A stretch of 46,760 nucleotides of DNA. It comes from Mariprofundaceae bacterium (GTDB lineage Bacteria; Pseudomonadota; Zetaproteobacteria; Mariprofundales; Mariprofundaceae). A program made the translations under genes and the position numbers. Shown piece after piece: positions 35,524 to 41,283 of the stretch (position 1 is its first letter; each line of letters opens with the position of its first letter). Location: contig WFOK01000067.1 of the NCBI GenBank assembly GCA_015488115.1, positions 1 through 46,760 of the forward strand. Reading direction: 5' to 3'. The notes below the pieces were generated by a model. The model did not search any database. It was given only the letters and a program-made list of their open reading frames with translations, and was not told the DNA's origin.

Positions 35524-35715
35524 ATGCAGCAGGAAATCGTGAATCGTTATCTCGATGCCGTAGAACAGGCGCTGGGTTCAACTGCCCGGCAAGCAACCGT
35601 GATCGAGCATCGCGGTGGCAACCGCTTCTTTTTTCGTCGGCATGATTGCGAATTAGGAAGGCTGGTGTCTGTCGGGGAGATTCGGCTGATGGCCCGTTAC
35701 CTGCGGGGAGAATAG
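35524..35715 (+). CDS. Small protein of unknown family, first of a tandem paralogous pair
   Basis: 63 residues, start fixed by AAGGAGG seven bases before ATG 35524. Pattern: amphipathic helix EIVNRYLDAVEQAL, then TVIEHRGGNRFFFRR, a turn, and GRLVSVGEIRLMARYL. No cysteine pair, signal peptide or membrane segment. It aligns without gaps to the next gene (about 25 of 58 positions identical by eye), with VNRYL and TVIEHRGG most conserved. I recognise no family. The 90 bases between it and argF hold TGTCA/TGACA repeats (35443-35447, 35454-35458, 35476-35480) that might be regulatory. Confidence 0.75.
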   Translation: MQQEIVNRYLDAVEQALGSTARQATVIEHRGGNRFFFRRHDCELGRLVSVGEIRLMARYLRGE

Positions 35716-35718
35716 AGC

Positions 35719-35937
35719 ATGGCCACGGAGATTGACCGAACGGTCAACAGGTATCTGGAAATGATTGAGCGTTTGCTTGGCTTGGAGGCGCGCCGGCATA
35801 CCGTGATTGAGCACCGGGGCGGGCGAAACCTTTATCTGAAACCGCCTTTCGTTGAACAAGGACGTTTGGTTGATGTATCGACGCTGGTGCAGATGATTCA
35901 TCACGCAGAAACAAGGGGTCGGAGAGGAGACGGCTGA
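35719..35937 (+). CDS. Small protein of unknown family, second of a tandem paralogous pair
   Basis: 72 residues, three bases after its paralogue, with GGGAGA before the ATG. Same layout: helix with VNRYLEMIERLLG, TVIEHRGGRNLYLKPPFVE, then GRLVDVSTLVQMIHHA and a basic tail RGRRGDG. The shared order of helix, TVIEHRGG and GRLV suggests a small helix-strand-helix domain. Likely arose by tandem duplication; divergence is too large for a recent event. It faces the convergent DUF481 gene; the intervening 144 bases hold no clear terminator. Confidence 0.75.
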   Translation: MATEIDRTVNRYLEMIERLLGLEARRHTVIEHRGGRNLYLKPPFVEQGRLVDVSTLVQMIHHAETRGRRGDG

Positions 35938-36081
35938 ATCTTGCAGCGTGCGCGATTGATGCGCTTTGCTGCGCATGCCCCCAGGTTGTTAACCAGGTTC
36001 CTGTTGTTTTCTTGAGCCAGGCGCCTGTTGCAAATAGAACATCATGATGGGGCCAGCCAGCTTCGTCATGAAAGATCCGGC

Positions 36082-36849
36082 CTAGAACTGTAGCGATAAT
36101 CCGGCGCTGTAACGCAGATCGGAGGACTTCACGGCCTGCGGCGGCCGCGCATCGAAGCCATAATCCAAGCGCACCTGCCAGTCGAGGTGCTCATTCATCC
36201 GGATCTTCAGGCATCCCTGGGCGAGCAGGCGATAATCAGCGGGATCGCGCACGGCCGGCTGAAAGTAGGCGATCGCATTCAGGCGCACCTGTGCATTGAA
36301 GCGGTGCTCGAGAACCAGATAGCCGTTCAGACGCGGCAGGTTTGAGCGTCGGTCCGTCGTGCCGATCTGCGGGCTCAATCGCTCCCATTCGTGAAATGCG
36401 CCCAAGCCGACATAGGCCGCGTTTTCCCCTGTCGGCTCGGTCAACACATAGCGCAGGCCGCCGCCGGTGAGCACGCGCAAGGCAAGCCGCGCAAACGGGT
36501 CGCGACCATATTGTCCGAAGAGCTCCCAGGCCCAGCGTTCAGCAAACTGCGTGCGATGCCGAAGATGGGCAAACAACCGGTTTGCATCCGTGCGGCCGCT
36601 GCTTTTGCCAAAGCTGTACTCGGCATACAGAAAATCCGTGTTTTGTCCCCGTCGGTAACGACTGAGCCAGTCCGCCTTGACTGCCTGCTTGTTCGTATTG
36701 CCGCGCGCGCCATCCAGCGACAGGTTACCGAAATGGGTAAGGCCTTCCTGTTCCGGATCGAGCATGGCCTGATCAACATTGACAATAGCCGAGGCCACCG
36801 TCGGCCCCAGCACAAGCGCGAGAAGCATTGCCATGAAGCGAAACACCAT
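36082..36849 (-). CDS. DUF481-type outer-membrane beta-barrel protein
   Basis: 255 residues. Signal peptide at 1-21 (MVFRFMAMLLALVLGPTVASA) with an Ala-x-Ala cleavage site. The mature protein has alternating aromatic beta strands, the DUF481-like LSLDGARGNTNKQAVKADW start, YAEYSFGKSSGRTDANRLF, and a C-terminal phenylalanine (YSAGLSLQF) typical of outer-membrane barrels. I chose ATG 36849, preceded by AGGAT; the open frame further upstream overlaps norB antisense-free sequence and is not similar to anything. Downstream of norB by 53 bases on the same strand, so possibly in the nor transcript. Function unknown. Confidence 0.82.
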   Translation of the reverse strand: MVFRFMAMLLALVLGPTVASAIVNVDQAMLDPEQEGLTHFGNLSLDGARGNTNKQAVKADWLSRYRRGQNTDFLYAEYSFGKSSGRTDANRLFAHLRHRTQFAERWAWELFGQYGRDPFARLALRVLTGGGLRYVLTEPTGENAAYVGLGAFHEWERLSPQIGTTDRRSNLPRLNGYLVLEHRFNAQVRLNAIAYFQPAVRDPADYRLLAQGCLKIRMNEHLDWQVRLDYGFDARPPQAVKSSDLRYSAGLSLQF

Positions 36850-36902
36850 CGGCCGGCATCCTAGCCGGGCAAGGCGACATCGGCGATGAAAAAACTTCCT
36901 CT

Positions 36903-38330
36903 TCAGCGCGATTCCGTTGCAGCCGGAAGCGTGACCGGGCGTGCGCGACCGATCGTGAGCAAGTCCCAAATCAACAATCCAATGCCGACAGTGGTCACGA
37001 CGCCAAACACCATTCGCCATTGCATGCCCTGCACGAACCAAGGATGAATCTGCGCCGCAAAGTAGCCGTACCACGTGGAGCCATCCATGGCTCGTTCGAT
37101 AAATGATTGTTCGTAGCCGGAGATCAGCAATGCGACGGTCATGCCAACCACCCCAACATTCAACAAGCCCAGCGCCCATTTCCATTTCCATCCGCGATCG
37201 GGAAGGTGCGAGCCAAGATCGGCCTGCCCGCGCATGTGTTGCACGGCGATGTAAAACATTGCGATGATGATCGTTGCATAGGCGCCGAAGAATGCGAGGT
37301 GGCCATGGGAAGCGGCCCACTGGGTTCCATGGGTATACAAATTGATCTGCGGCAGGGTGTGCATGAATCCCCAGACGCCAGCACCGAAAAAGTTTCCAAA
37401 CGCATGGGCGATCAGCCAGGCCAGGGCCGGCCGGTTGTTGCTTTTCATGTGCCGGACGCCGGAGTCATACACGGCATGCACGACCATGGCCACCAACGGG
37501 ATCGGTTCAAGCGCCGAGAAGAACCCGCCGATGCTGAGCCAATACTCGGGAGTGCCAATCCAGAAATAATGATGCCCAAGCCCCAAAATGCCGGAGCCAA
37601 ACATCAGTGCGACCTCAATGTACAACCATGTGGTCACGATCTTGCGTTCCACCTGCAGTGTCTTCATCAGACCCCAGGCCATGATGCACCCGACCAGCAC
37701 CTCCCAGGTTGCCTCTACCCACAAATGGATAACCCACCACCACCAGTACTGGTCGAGGGAGATGTTCGTCGTGTAGAACATGCCGGCCATGTACAGACCG
37801 GCTAGCGCAATCAAATCCAGTGTCAGTACACCAGCGATTCCGCTCCAGCGCCCCTTGGCGAAGGTTGCGGCGACATTGTAAAAAAACACTGAAAAGCATA
37901 CGACGATGCCGATGTCTGCCCAACGCGGCGCCTCGATGTATTCACGGCCCTCATTGATAAACCAGCGTGTGAAATCATTGCCGGGGCCGGTTTGCACAAA
38001 CAGATAAACGAGCACGACCACCGTGACTGCCGCAGTCAGCACCCAGAAGGCCAGGTTCCCCCATTTAAGGCCGACGACCGGATGCCCGCTTTCCTCCTCG
38101 AGCAGCCAATAAACCGAACCAATAAAGCCGTACAGCATCCAAACGACCATCGCATTGATGTGCACGGTCCGCGTCATGTTGAAATTCAGCACGCCGAGCA
38201 GAAAGTCCGGCGCAAGGTACTGCATGCCCGAGAGAAGGCCAAACAGGATTTGGGCGACAAAAAGCAGAACCGCAACGACAAAGTATTTGACCGCGAGCTG
38301 CTGACCTCCATTCAGTTGCACGTTCTCCAT
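36903..38330 (-). CDS. norB: Nitric oxide reductase large subunit, cytochrome c type
   Basis: 475 residues, 12 predicted membrane helices, heme-copper oxidase superfamily. Reduces two NO to N2O in the membrane with electrons from NorC. Expected ligands are present: H57 (RTVHINA) and H344 for heme b, H342 for heme b3 (SHGHLAFFGAYA), and H202, H253, H254 for the non-heme iron (IHLWVEATWEV, GLGHHYFW). Glutamates E206 and E275, conserved in NOR, are also there. The protein lacks the N-terminal extension of quinol-type qNOR. Three bases follow norC. Confidence 0.96.
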   Translation of the reverse strand: MENVQLNGGQQLAVKYFVVAVLLFVAQILFGLLSGMQYLAPDFLLGVLNFNMTRTVHINAMVVWMLYGFIGSVYWLLEEESGHPVVGLKWGNLAFWVLTAAVTVVVLVYLFVQTGPGNDFTRWFINEGREYIEAPRWADIGIVVCFSVFFYNVAATFAKGRWSGIAGVLTLDLIALAGLYMAGMFYTTNISLDQYWWWWVIHLWVEATWEVLVGCIMAWGLMKTLQVERKIVTTWLYIEVALMFGSGILGLGHHYFWIGTPEYWLSIGGFFSALEPIPLVAMVVHAVYDSGVRHMKSNNRPALAWLIAHAFGNFFGAGVWGFMHTLPQINLYTHGTQWAASHGHLAFFGAYATIIIAMFYIAVQHMRGQADLGSHLPDRGWKWKWALGLLNVGVVGMTVALLISGYEQSFIERAMDGSTWYGYFAAQIHPWFVQGMQWRMVFGVVTTVGIGLLIWDLLTIGRARPVTLPAATESR

Positions 38331-38333
38331 AGC

Positions 38334-38933
38334 TCAGCCCTCCTTCTCGATGACCGTGAAATTGTAAGGGAACCCATTGGTGTCGATCGCCGACATCCAT
38401 TTCAGAAACGCGATTACCGCTCGTGCCTCCTCTTCGGTCAGATGAAGATTGGGCATCGTTCGCCCCGAGCCGAACGAACGCGCGTTTTCTTGGGGGTCGA
38501 GCAGGAAATTCAGCATCATTTCCTCGCGTTCAGCTTCCGAGCCCCACGCAGGGTCAAGCCATGCCTTCGTCAAGTCCGGAGCAAAATAGGCGCCATTGCC
38601 AAGCAGCGTATGGCAGCCCATGCAATTGCGACCCTGAATGACCTTCTTGCCATGGGTGACCAAGGCCTCGGCCTGTTTCTCGCTAAGCATTTCGCCAAAC
38701 AACGGGTCATCCTCTCCGATGACCGGCACCTGAATGTTGCGGCGGTCATCGAATTCATAAGCGATATGCTTGTTGATGACCGAATAGGCTGGCACCCTCG
38801 CACTGCCGGCGCTGATCTGCGGCAGGGTGTTCATCGTCAGAAAAATCAGGACAACAAACATGATGCCGGTCACCCATATCGCGGTCTTCTTCCAGAACGA
38901 TTCGCTGGCCCACCAGGGAACTTCATTGTTCAT
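38334..38933 (-). CDS. norC: Nitric oxide reductase cytochrome c subunit
   Basis: 199 residues. One N-terminal membrane anchor at about 17-36, then a periplasmic single-heme domain: C104-M-G-C107-H108 in RNCMGCHTLLGNGAYFAPDLT, with M160 in GRTMPNLHLTEEEARAVIAFLKW as the likely sixth ligand (in parts). Longer than the 146 residues of the pseudomonad protein: about 45 extra residues between anchor and heme (around 50-95), and more in the region 125-155. Start overlaps the preceding gene by ATGA. Confidence 0.95.
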   Translation of the reverse strand: MNNEVPWWASESFWKKTAIWVTGIMFVVLIFLTMNTLPQISAGSARVPAYSVINKHIAYEFDDRRNIQVPVIGEDDPLFGEMLSEKQAEALVTHGKKVIQGRNCMGCHTLLGNGAYFAPDLTKAWLDPAWGSEAEREEMMLNFLLDPQENARSFGSGRTMPNLHLTEEEARAVIAFLKWMSAIDTNGFPYNFTVIEKEG

Positions 38934-39313
38934 TTTTCTGCCTCCCTTTCTGCCGTGTCGAACATCTCGGTTTCAAGGTCGCGCTCCGTCAGCCTGATGC
39001 CCCGGTCAACTCGATGCCGGTGCCCATGCGTGCCCTCGCACAAACGCCAGATACCATGAGGAGCGAGCAGATAGCCCAGCAGCATGGCAATGACCAATAC
39101 CCACCAATAGCCATGCAGATGGGCTGCTGAACCAAGCACGAGCACGGCCACAAACAGCACGACATAGGCGGCATAGGCAAAGCGCATCAGCGCTGGTTTG
39201 GATTGTATCCGGGACCATGCAAACATCAGGGCATACAGCCCACCGGCCACTATGACCATCGCCCCGGCAAAGAAGACGATAAAGAAATCCTTCAATTCGA
39301 CAGGCTCAAGCAT
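38930..39313 (-). CDS. Small membrane protein heading the nor operon
   Basis: 127 residues with three hydrophobic stretches (about 9-33 FFIVFFAGAMVIVAGGLYAL, 48-64, and 70-86 WWVLVIAMLLGYLLAP), followed by a charged tail with HGHRHR and an acidic end. GAGG lies eight bases before ATG 39313. It is translationally coupled to norC (ATGA), so it is likely an assembly factor or accessory subunit of this NOR. It does not resemble NorE, NorF, NorQ or NorD by motif. I do not recognise the family. Confidence 0.8.
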   Translation of the reverse strand: MLEPVELKDFFIVFFAGAMVIVAGGLYALMFAWSRIQSKPALMRFAYAAYVVLFVAVLVLGSAAHLHGYWWVLVIAMLLGYLLAPHGIWRLCEGTHGHRHRVDRGIRLTERDLETEMFDTAEREAEK

Positions 39314-39327
39314 TGAACGCCTCTACT

Positions 39328-39358
39328 TCTATAAAAATAGCGCATCAGGCAGATGCAA
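39328..39358 (-). promoter_or_regulatory. Candidate promoter of the nor operon
   Basis: On the minus strand TTGCAT (39358-39353) is followed after 17 bases by TTTATA (39335-39330) or after 19 by TATAGA (39333-39328). The local AT-rich patch TTCTATAAAAATAG is distinctive in this GC-rich window. The -35 is itself an ATGCAA half-site like those in the neighbouring palindrome. Confidence 0.45.
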
Positions 39359-39373
39359 GCAACCGGCAATGAA

Positions 39374-39404
39374 GTTGCATGATGCAATAGTTGCATCATG
39401 CAAC
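39374..39404. promoter_or_regulatory. 31-bp compound palindrome in the nor/marR divergent region
   Basis: GTTGCATGATGCAA (39374-39387), a TAG spacer, and TTGCATCATGCAAC (39391-39404): the two 14-base halves are exact reverse complements. Each half also contains a 13-bp palindrome of form TTGCAT-S-ATGCAA, centres 16 bp apart. A further ATGCAA half-site lies at 39353-39358. Placement between divergent nor and marR genes suggests an operator for the MarR regulator, perhaps bound by two dimers. Confidence 0.7.
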
Positions 39405-39424
39405 CAACAGGGCAGTATGGCGCC

Positions 39425-39898
39425 ATGGACCGTAAATCCCGATTCCGCCTCGAACAGGCCATCGGCTTTCATGTCAACCGCGTGGCCTTTCTGATGAGTG
39501 AGGAAATTGCTCGTCGTTTTGCCGCAGCAGGCCACCCGATTTCCGCCCAGGACTTTGGCATCCTCCATCGCCTGCGCCAGCAGGGTGCCATGACCCCCGC
39601 GGAGATCGCGACGCTCATGCGCCGCGACAAAACGACGATCACCCGCCGGCTTGATGGCCTGGCCAAAAAGGGATTGATCGAACGCCGCCCTCATCCGGAC
39701 GATCGCCGCTGCGTGCTGATCGCGCTGAGCGGGGACGGGCAGCAAACACTGGAGGCCGTCACCCCATTGGTTCAGGCCTTTCAGCAGGAGGTGCTGCAAG
39801 GCGTGCCGAAGGCCGATCGCGAGGTCACGCTGCGCACCCTGCAGCATATCGCATCCATTCTGGATGCCACCGATAGTGCGAAAAAGGAGAAAACATGA
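39425..39898 (+). CDS. MarR-family transcription regulator next to nor
   Basis: 157 residues from ATG 39425. Winged helix-turn-helix with QDFGILHRLRQQGAMTPAEIA, recognition helix RRDKTTITRRLDGLAKKGLI and wing ERRPHPDDRRCVLIALSG. ATG 39398 is in frame but lies inside the palindrome and has no ribosome site, so I prefer 39425, with AGGGC twelve bases upstream. MarR proteins usually repress their own divergent region and respond to a ligand or redox signal. Cysteine is scarce (one near residue 100), so thiol sensing is not obvious. Coupled by ATGA to the cytochrome gene. Confidence 0.88.
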   Translation: MDRKSRFRLEQAIGFHVNRVAFLMSEEIARRFAAAGHPISAQDFGILHRLRQQGAMTPAEIATLMRRDKTTITRRLDGLAKKGLIERRPHPDDRRCVLIALSGDGQQTLEAVTPLVQAFQQEVLQGVPKADREVTLRTLQHIASILDATDSAKKEKT

Positions 39899-40371
39899 AA
39901 AACACCACACCCCATTGGATCGCGATCGTCCTGCTCGGCGGCGCGCTGATCGCCATCGGCGTCAAGTTTGTCATTCTCGGCACGACCGCGCCGGGCAGCG
40001 CCGAGGATCCACGCATGGCAGTCGTGCTGACGAAGACTGAACGCGCGATGGTGCTGGGAGAGATGCGGACGCTTCTGGCAACGACGCAAACCCTGATTGA
40101 GGCGTTGAACGAGAATGATTTGAAGCGCGCGGAGAACGCCGCGCGCAAGGTCGGCAAGGCTGCGGTCTCGACGATGGACTTTCGCCTGCGCGCCAAGCTG
40201 CCGCTGGAGTTCAAGAGGCTCGGATTCGGCACGCATGATGCATTCGATGACATTGCGGACATGGCCGCAGCCGGCAAGCCGCCGGCCGAGATCCAACGCA
40301 GGCTGGCGGAAGCCATGAACAACTGCATCGCCTGCCATGCAAGCTACAGGCTCATCGCTGCGACACCGTGA
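39895..40371 (+). CDS. Membrane-anchored class II cytochrome c (cytochrome c'-like)
   Basis: 158 residues. N-terminal hydrophobic anchor or uncleaved signal at about 8-29 (WIAIVLLGGALIAIGVKF). The rest is helical with a C-terminal heme site C144-I-A-C147-H148 followed by ASYR, the layout of four-helix cytochromes c' and c-556. Cytochromes c' bind NO, which fits the NOR context; whether this one is five-coordinate cannot be told. Cotranscribed with marR (ATGA) and with the next gene (GTGA overlap). Confidence 0.85.
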   Translation: MKNTTPHWIAIVLLGGALIAIGVKFVILGTTAPGSAEDPRMAVVLTKTERAMVLGEMRTLLATTQTLIEALNENDLKRAENAARKVGKAAVSTMDFRLRAKLPLEFKRLGFGTHDAFDDIADMAAAGKPPAEIQRRLAEAMNNCIACHASYRLIAATP

Positions 40372-40841
40372 AACGGGCCATCATCGGCTTCACAAAGGAT
40401 GAGCATGGCAACTGGGTCGCGCTGCTGAGCTGCGGTCATCCTCAGCATGTGCGTCATGACCCCCCGTTCACCTTGCGGCCATGGGTCGAAAGTGCGGCAG
40501 GTCGCGCTGGAAAAATCGGTGTCGCACTCAATTGCGTGCGCTGCGACAGGTTGGAGCTGCCGGATGGCTGGATCGCCGATGGACGGGGGGATGTCATCAC
40601 CGCGACCGGGGTGCCTAGCCGATGGTGGCGCATCCAACGCTCGGATGCCGAACACTGGCTGACACTCGAGGTTATCCGGGGGTGCGTTCGCTGGATTCCC
40701 TGCCAGCCCGGCCCGTCCTTGCAGGTCGTGGATGCCGGCAATGCGATCGCGATTCCGCCGGATGTGATGTATCGGCTGGACTGGAGCGAGGATGCCATGT
40801 CTGCGTTCACCCGCTACCATCGCCCCAATGAAACCGACTGA
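40368..40841 (+). CDS. DUF3565 protein fused to a cupin-like (DUF1971/TehB-N type) domain
   Basis: 157 residues, GTG start overlapping the cytochrome stop. Residues 1-64 match DUF3565: IGFTKDEHGNWVALLSCGHPQHVRHDPPF, then RPWV and LNCVRCDR, giving conserved C-G-H and C-x2-C groups that could bind a metal (in parts). Residues about 70-157 look like a small beta barrel with WLTLEVIRGCVRW, IAIPPDVMYRLDW and FTRYHRP, similar in pattern to DUF1971, the domain at the N-terminus of some TehB proteins. One metal-site histidine of that domain seems replaced by Tyr. Function unknown; the second-domain call is tentative. Confidence 0.65.
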   Translation: MKRAIIGFTKDEHGNWVALLSCGHPQHVRHDPPFTLRPWVESAAGRAGKIGVALNCVRCDRLELPDGWIADGRGDVITATGVPSRWWRIQRSDAEHWLTLEVIRGCVRWIPCQPGPSLQVVDAGNAIAIPPDVMYRLDWSEDAMSAFTRYHRPNETD

Positions 40842-41283
40842 ATGCCTGCGGGTTCTGCTCGCAGCCTTCGCCCTTGGCGCATCTTCCCCTGTGACTGCGC
40901 AGGATGATGTCTTGGTGCTTCGCATCGATGACATCGAGCCGGTGGCAGGTGCGCCGGTGATTGTCCGTGTCTACGACCGCGCCGGCTGGCTGCAGCCGGA
41001 AAAGGCCCTGCGTACATTGCATTTGCATCCGCATGGGCGAACCAGCGAGAGCTGTTCGTTGCCGATATCGAAGGATATGCGTGGAACTGCGGTTGCACTT
41101 GAGGCATTCCAGGATCTGAACGGCAATGGAAAGCTGGACATGCACTGGTTTCCGTGGCCGGGGCCGTCAGAGCCCGTCGGCTTTGCGAACGGGTATCGTC
41201 CGCGGACAAGGCCACGGTTTGAAGAAGCCGTGGTTCCAGCCGGACCCGGAAACAAGGAGGTTGTCATCCATCTTCGGCGCTAG
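40828..41283 (+). CDS. Exported DUF2141-type protein
   Basis: 151 residues. Signal peptide about 1-24 (CLRVLLAAFALGASSPVTAQ, cleavage near TAQ-D). The mature part follows the DUF2141 layout: VIVRVYDRAGWLQPEKAL, GTAVALEAFQDLNGNGKLDMHWF, and PVGFANGYR with RPRFEEAVV. The DLNGNGKLD stretch resembles a calcium-binding loop. Periplasmic, role unknown. It overlaps the preceding gene by 14 bases, so it belongs to the marR-cytochrome unit. Preferred start ATG 40828 over an in-frame ATG at 40798. Confidence 0.78.
   Translation: MKPTECLRVLLAAFALGASSPVTAQDDVLVLRIDDIEPVAGAPVIVRVYDRAGWLQPEKALRTLHLHPHGRTSESCSLPISKDMRGTAVALEAFQDLNGNGKLDMHWFPWPGPSEPVGFANGYRPRTRPRFEEAVVPAGPGNKEVVIHLRR

Follow-up and report, generated by a model that had tools for sequence, protein, structure and literature searches.

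A Thermus-like norH-norC-norB nitric oxide reductase operon beside a separable marR-cytochrome c' unit in a Mariprofundaceae genome

Overview of the locus

The nitric oxide reductase (NOR) encoded in the stretch of DNA analysed here (the window, 46,760 nucleotides in all) is, with a probability of roughly 0.88, a Thermus-like, NorH-type cNOR into which FeB is inserted without NorQ or NorD and whose most likely task is the removal of NO of outside origin. The source genome, that of a bacterium of the iron-oxidiser type, is a metagenome-assembled genome (MAG) of the Mariprofundaceae (Zetaproteobacteria), 1.69 Mb in size, 98.65% complete and distributed over 72 contigs. Each gene that the original prediction had placed in this part of the window is an intact open reading frame at its position, and the short overlaps that it had described between neighbours are present.

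The NOR operon lies on the minus strand and begins with a gene for a membrane protein of 127 aa with three predicted transmembrane helices (38930-39313), which shares an ATGA overlap of 4 nt with norC (38334-38933; cytochrome c subunit, long form, 199 aa, PF00034). The gene for the catalytic subunit, norB (36903-38330; 475 aa, PF00115 (COX1), E=3.6e-64), comes next, and 53 nt 3' of it on the same strand is a gene for a DUF481 outer-membrane barrel (36082-36849; PF04338, E=5e-25). The barrel gene does stand behind norB, as had been claimed, but as a partner of the NOR it fares less well, as no homologue is found near NOR in relatives and the gene is unconserved at other norHCB loci. At the edge of this region two adjacent small ORFs on the plus strand (35524-35715 and 35719-35937), which the original prediction had passed over, encode 63 and 72 aa; they are paralogous to each other, with 50% identity over 48 aa, and have zero matches in Pfam or NCBIfam.

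The small membrane protein as a NorH homologue

The 127-aa membrane protein gave nothing significant in Pfam, NCBIfam or PDB sequence searches, and its AF2 model (pLDDT 87.7) had no significant match when compared with the PDB by Foldseek. Profile methods identify it as a homologue of Thermus NorH, the third subunit of NorCBH, on the strength of sequence. The alignment of its profile with Thermus NorH by hhalign has a probability of 96.6 and E 5e-10 over 83 columns, and its HMM finds Thermus NorH at E=1.3e-10 among 13,421 ORFs, where the best of 500 shuffled Thermus NorH sequences reached only E=3. Identity between the two proteins is low, at about 28%; seven residues (Y27, A32, W70, Y81, P85, W89 and H96) are invariant in 31/31 NorH sequences, Thermus included. 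The last of these, H96, comes after TM3, and the distribution of charges suggests that it faces the cytoplasm. Weak NorH-like matches in two further genomes (G018 and G025) were set aside, since by eye they look like CDP-alcohol phosphatidyltransferase. The original prediction had proposed that the small membrane protein might replace an accessory role. It is indeed a conserved partner, perhaps with work of its own, but it is better described as a NorH homologue than as an uncharacterised replacement.

NorB and NorC

That the enzyme is a cNOR of the norC-norB kind, as originally called, is borne out by the protein families and by the catalytic motifs of NorB, in which the FeB and haem ligand motifs HLWVE, GHHYFW and FSALEP are intact, as in conventional cNORs. 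Both subunits are closest to the Thermus proteins. NorB is 63% identical to NorB of Thermus thermophilus, the nearest among plasmid records (the next is <40%), and its identity to conventional cNORs is only about 40%. NorC aligns with Thermus NorC at 54% identity over 196 aa, or almost its whole length, whereas its alignment with NorC of P. aeruginosa is limited to the C-terminal ~110 aa, conventional NorC being without such an N-terminal part. In the NorB tree Thermus and all of the norH-type proteins fall on a single 100/100 branch, apart from the NorQD-type cNORs. With the small norH gene inside the operon, the locus has the components of Thermus NorCBH, in a gene order unlike that of Thermus.

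Spread and linkage of norH-norC-norB

A search through 84,980 species genomes yielded 31 norH-type loci, a figure that gives a lower bound on the spread of NorH because the search patterns are biased towards relatives of the aligned sequences. The taxa represented include Zetaproteobacteria, Gallionellaceae, Thiobacillus, Methylococcaceae, Woeseia, Lysobacterales and others. The original prediction had looked to conserved co-occurrence across genomes of norCB with the membrane protein, MarR and DUF3565 genes, and for the membrane protein the association is conserved: norH, norC and norB follow one another on one strand in 28/28 of the other loci whose contigs are long enough, norH and norC either overlapping by 4 nt or being separated by a short gap, and norH is directly 5' of norC in 12/12 genomes of the relatives set that have a full-length NorB of this type. 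This linkage is far above chance.

An unannotated gene without a Pfam or NCBIfam match, which constantly accompanies this type of NOR, can now be given the name NorH, and the range of NorH is widened from Thermus, the sole prior case checked, to iron-oxidising and other Pseudomonadota. The norHCB arrangement may also serve as a marker, in genomes, of microaerophilic iron oxidisers that produce N2O. In a literature search that combined norH with iron oxidisers, no mention of norH was found. The presence of norBC/cNOR or eNOR in Gallionellaceae and Zetaproteobacteria has already been recorded, and NO detoxification proposed, in passages of two papers (PMC8114936, PMC10734462) that do not mention norH.

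NorQ, NorD and the loading of FeB

In Paracoccus, NorQ and NorD insert FeB into the cNOR, and D220 and E222 of NorB are required (PMC9976466). One or both of norQ and norD adjoin norCB in 7/7 of the conventional cNOR loci that were fetched, and neither is found at the norH-type loci. For the Mariprofundaceae operon the original prediction had noted that norQ, norD, norE and norF are missing from the neighbourhood, which is correct, and had conceded that a norQ/norD pair elsewhere in the genome would count against it. Only CbbQ/CbbO relatives of the RuBisCO type turned up there: one match of the CbbQ/NorQ family, at 60%, and the C-terminal part of one CbbO-type vWA protein, at 33%. The former, a CbbQ_C protein, was rejected as a NorQ, as it reaches 479 bits with CbbQ but 327 with NorQ, and copies in relatives adjoin RuBisCO. 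Across the norH genomes there is no full-length NorD, the matches being CbbO-type proteins over the C-terminal part only; G113, where NorD-like matches of 33-44% cover the C-terminal half, is uncertain. Three norH genomes (G045, G122 and G125) have neither a NorQ nor a NorD match. As 1.35% of the genome is absent from the MAG and the rest is spread over 72 contigs, a NorQD pair or a nitrite reductase may have been missed.

The absence of the chaperone genes goes together with a change in NorB. With residues numbered as in the homologous chain of 4xyd, the acids D220 and E222 of Paracoccus NorB correspond to E and K of the Mariprofundaceae protein, within the residues VERKIVTT (37629-37652, minus strand). 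Position 222 is K, R or Q in 31/31 norH-type proteins, a set that includes Thermus, whereas 8/8 conventional ones have E; position 220 varies within the norH type and is D in the same 8/8. So clean a change of charge at position 222 between norH-type and NorQD-type enzymes offers a natural contrast set for the study of FeB entry into cNOR.

How NorH enters into this can be read in more than one way. NorH might chiefly be an assembly factor that does the job of NorQD, helping to insert FeB from the cytoplasmic side, and not a stoichiometric subunit at all. We place this on the unlikely side, although NorQD is missing wherever norH is present (again with G113 uncertain), the residue at NorB 222 that is needed for FeB insertion in Paracoccus is never acidic in the norH type, and the invariant H96 may lie on the appropriate side of the membrane. 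Against it, Thermus NorCBH has been described as a heterotrimeric NOR that includes NorH (PMC5748679), and the single-chain qNOR receives its FeB without a chaperone (PMC9976466), so that the loss of NorQD need not demand a replacement. A 2025 paper cited in PMC13036017 concerns, by its title, cNORs without chaperones. A related idea, that NorH and the changes at the cytoplasmic face of NorB together replace the NorQD AAA+ machinery, with the conserved PxGxW...H tail of NorH helping to load FeB without ATP, strikes us as unlikely. If true, the presence of norH together with a lost acid at NorB 222 would mark chaperone-free cNORs. The reading that we prefer has NorH as a subunit of an enzyme that acquires FeB without NorQ and NorD.

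The adjoining marR unit

Four genes on the plus strand diverge from the NOR operon. A marR-family regulator (39425-39898; PF01047 (MarR), E=7e-19) overlaps by 4 nt a gene for a membrane-anchored class II cytochrome resembling cytochrome c' (39895-40371), which is followed by a gene for a DUF3565 protein (40368-40841; E=7e-28) with a weak C-terminal DUF1971 domain (TehB cupin-like, E=0.019) and by one for a DUF2141 secreted protein (40828-41283; PF09912, E=2e-8). The regulator did not align with the C-terminal 98 aa of the MarR of the Thermus nic cluster. The cytochrome matches PF01322 at a sub-threshold level and has the marks of class II cytochrome c', a four-helix bundle with a C-terminal CxxCH, here CIACH near the C terminus; in a Foldseek comparison its best match was cytochrome c' 1rcp (prob 1.00, TMt 0.66, with a weak E of 0.025).

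Judged by its distribution, the marR-cytochrome c'-DUF3565-DUF2141 unit is a module separate from the NOR that it merely adjoins. A genome of the same genus (G001) has the four genes in identical order on contig C73, and its NOR is on C102. The marR-cytochrome pair recurs in 10 other genomic loci, with marR orthologues 51-61% identical, and the core of the unit is present in complete genomes that have no NOR (e.g. G012, G034 and G053). At other norHCB loci the marR unit is found in none. DUF3565 orthologues are present in 11 other genomes of the class (E below 1e-20). Tested across the class with phylogeny uncorrected, co-occurrence with NOR is not significant for the cytochrome (Fisher p=0.22) and modest for DUF3565 (Fisher p=0.007). 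The expectation of a shared occurrence with norCB is thus disappointed for the marR unit, whose association is unconserved, and retained in a modest form for DUF3565. The pair is often followed by a DUF2892-like gene or lies near RND/MMPL transporters, and from such neighbours one might guess at a role in envelope or redox stress.

Two further observations concern the wider occurrence of these genes. A conserved marR-cytochrome c' pair that carries a palindromic operator of its own (L223-L232, e.g. L227:4113-5295) is widely distributed in Mariprofundaceae, whether or not NOR is present. In the related genus g9, two genomes (L235:395-5388 and L236:4818-10000) have a DUF3565 gene that comes after an MMPL-type transporter gene, a gene for a protein of outer-membrane type and a cytochrome c gene, with NOR not nearby.

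Regulatory sites

The divergent region holds two tandem palindromes, TTGCATGATGCAA at 39375-39387 and TTGCATCATGCAA at 39391-39403, of the form TTGCAT-N-ATGCAA, which together (39375-39403) make up a probable MarR operator; an alternative marR start at an upstream ATG (39398) would overlap it. An operator of the form AGTTGCA-N3-TGCAACT stands ahead of marR in 11/11 loci, and no close match to it was found ahead of norH elsewhere, with one partial match, in L067. Three exact operator sites occur in the 1.69 Mb genome. A wider MarR regulon was considered from these and rejected, the sole extra copy, the third, lying inside a coding gene that resembles rlmN. A sigma-70 scan of the divergent region gave no convincing promoter. 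Upstream of norH in several other genomes (L066, L072 and L075-L079) there are perfect or near-perfect boxes of the FNR/DNR type, TTGAT-N4-ATCAA, at 70-140 bp 5' of the gene, and a Crp/Fnr gene adjoins some other norHCB loci; the norH operon in the window has no such box.

It had been proposed originally that all of these genes are one NO regulon, and a single NO-responsive regulon of the marR unit, nor and the DUF481 gene can be argued from the shared divergent region with its operator between norH and marR, from a plausible connection with NO of the protein resembling cytochrome c' and of the TehB-like cupin, and from the modest co-occurrence of DUF3565 with NOR. The proposal is not borne out, and we now hold it to be quite improbable: in a genome of the same genus the four genes and NOR are on different contigs, the core is found where there is no NOR, the other norHCB loci all lack the unit, conservation of the operator follows marR rather than norH, and in several other genomes the sites 5' of norH are of the FNR/DNR type. 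Local co-regulation of nor with the marR unit in this one genome is possible.

Proposed working and physiological role

In the reading that we prefer, that of a NorH-type cNOR, NorH would be made first, as a small membrane subunit of the enzyme, with three helices and translational coupling to NorC, and FeB would be inserted without NorQ or NorD. Electrons that NorC takes from periplasmic cytochromes would reach the haem b3/FeB centre in NorB, and there two NO would be reduced to N2O. The NO removed is likely to come from outside, either from neighbours or from the chemical reaction of nitrite with Fe(II), and would otherwise be toxic to an iron-oxidation chain rich in haem.

This organism's own 98.65% complete genome gave no match to NirK or to cd1 nitrite reductase, and detoxification of outside NO is therefore the likeliest role. 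Respiratory denitrification has in its favour that nirK lies directly 3' of norB in four related genomes with norHCB (G032, G045, G047 and G104) and that, of the three co-occurrences with NOR tested in the class, that with nirK is the strongest (Fisher p=0.0003, phylogeny uncorrected). For the organism at hand, with neither nitrite reductase matched, we consider it very improbable.

Comparison with known systems

The Mariprofundaceae enzyme shares with qNOR and eNOR a common haem-copper oxidase superfamily. The qNOR is a single fused chain, whereas the enzyme described here is of two chains. The eNOR is reported for some Zetaproteobacteria and Gallionellaceae (PMC8114936, PMC10734462); the present enzyme groups with the cNOR of Thermus.

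The conventional norCBQDEF system of Paracoccus denitrificans has in common with it the catalytic motifs of NorB and the haem domain of NorC, and differs in the overall sequence of NorB (about 40% identity), in the N-terminus of NorC, in the possession of NorQD and in E222, which is replaced by K, R or Q. For a proteobacterial norH-type NOR we know of no structure or biochemistry.

The closest system is NorCBH of Thermus thermophilus, encoded in the nic cluster; NorH, reportedly described by Bricio et al. in 2014 (a study cited in PMC5748679) as the third subunit, is said to occur in Thermales and Aquificales. The gene order in Thermus is norC-norB-norH, with norH last, whereas in the Mariprofundaceae operon norH is first. 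The Thermus genes that diverge from the operon include an Rrf2 regulator and DUF542 in place of the MarR unit, and a nitrite reductase lies downstream of the Thermus NOR, whereas none was found in the Mariprofundaceae genome. An AraC-type cupin gene also stands, with rrf2 and DUF542, in divergent orientation to the Thermus NOR operon (L171:2211-2701), and the resemblance of this cupin to the weak cupin-like DUF1971 domain of the Mariprofundaceae unit is one of analogy only. What the two systems share is the NorB (63% identity), a long-form NorC (54%), a homologous NorH, the lack of an adjoining norQ or norD and a cupin-family gene in the divergent unit.
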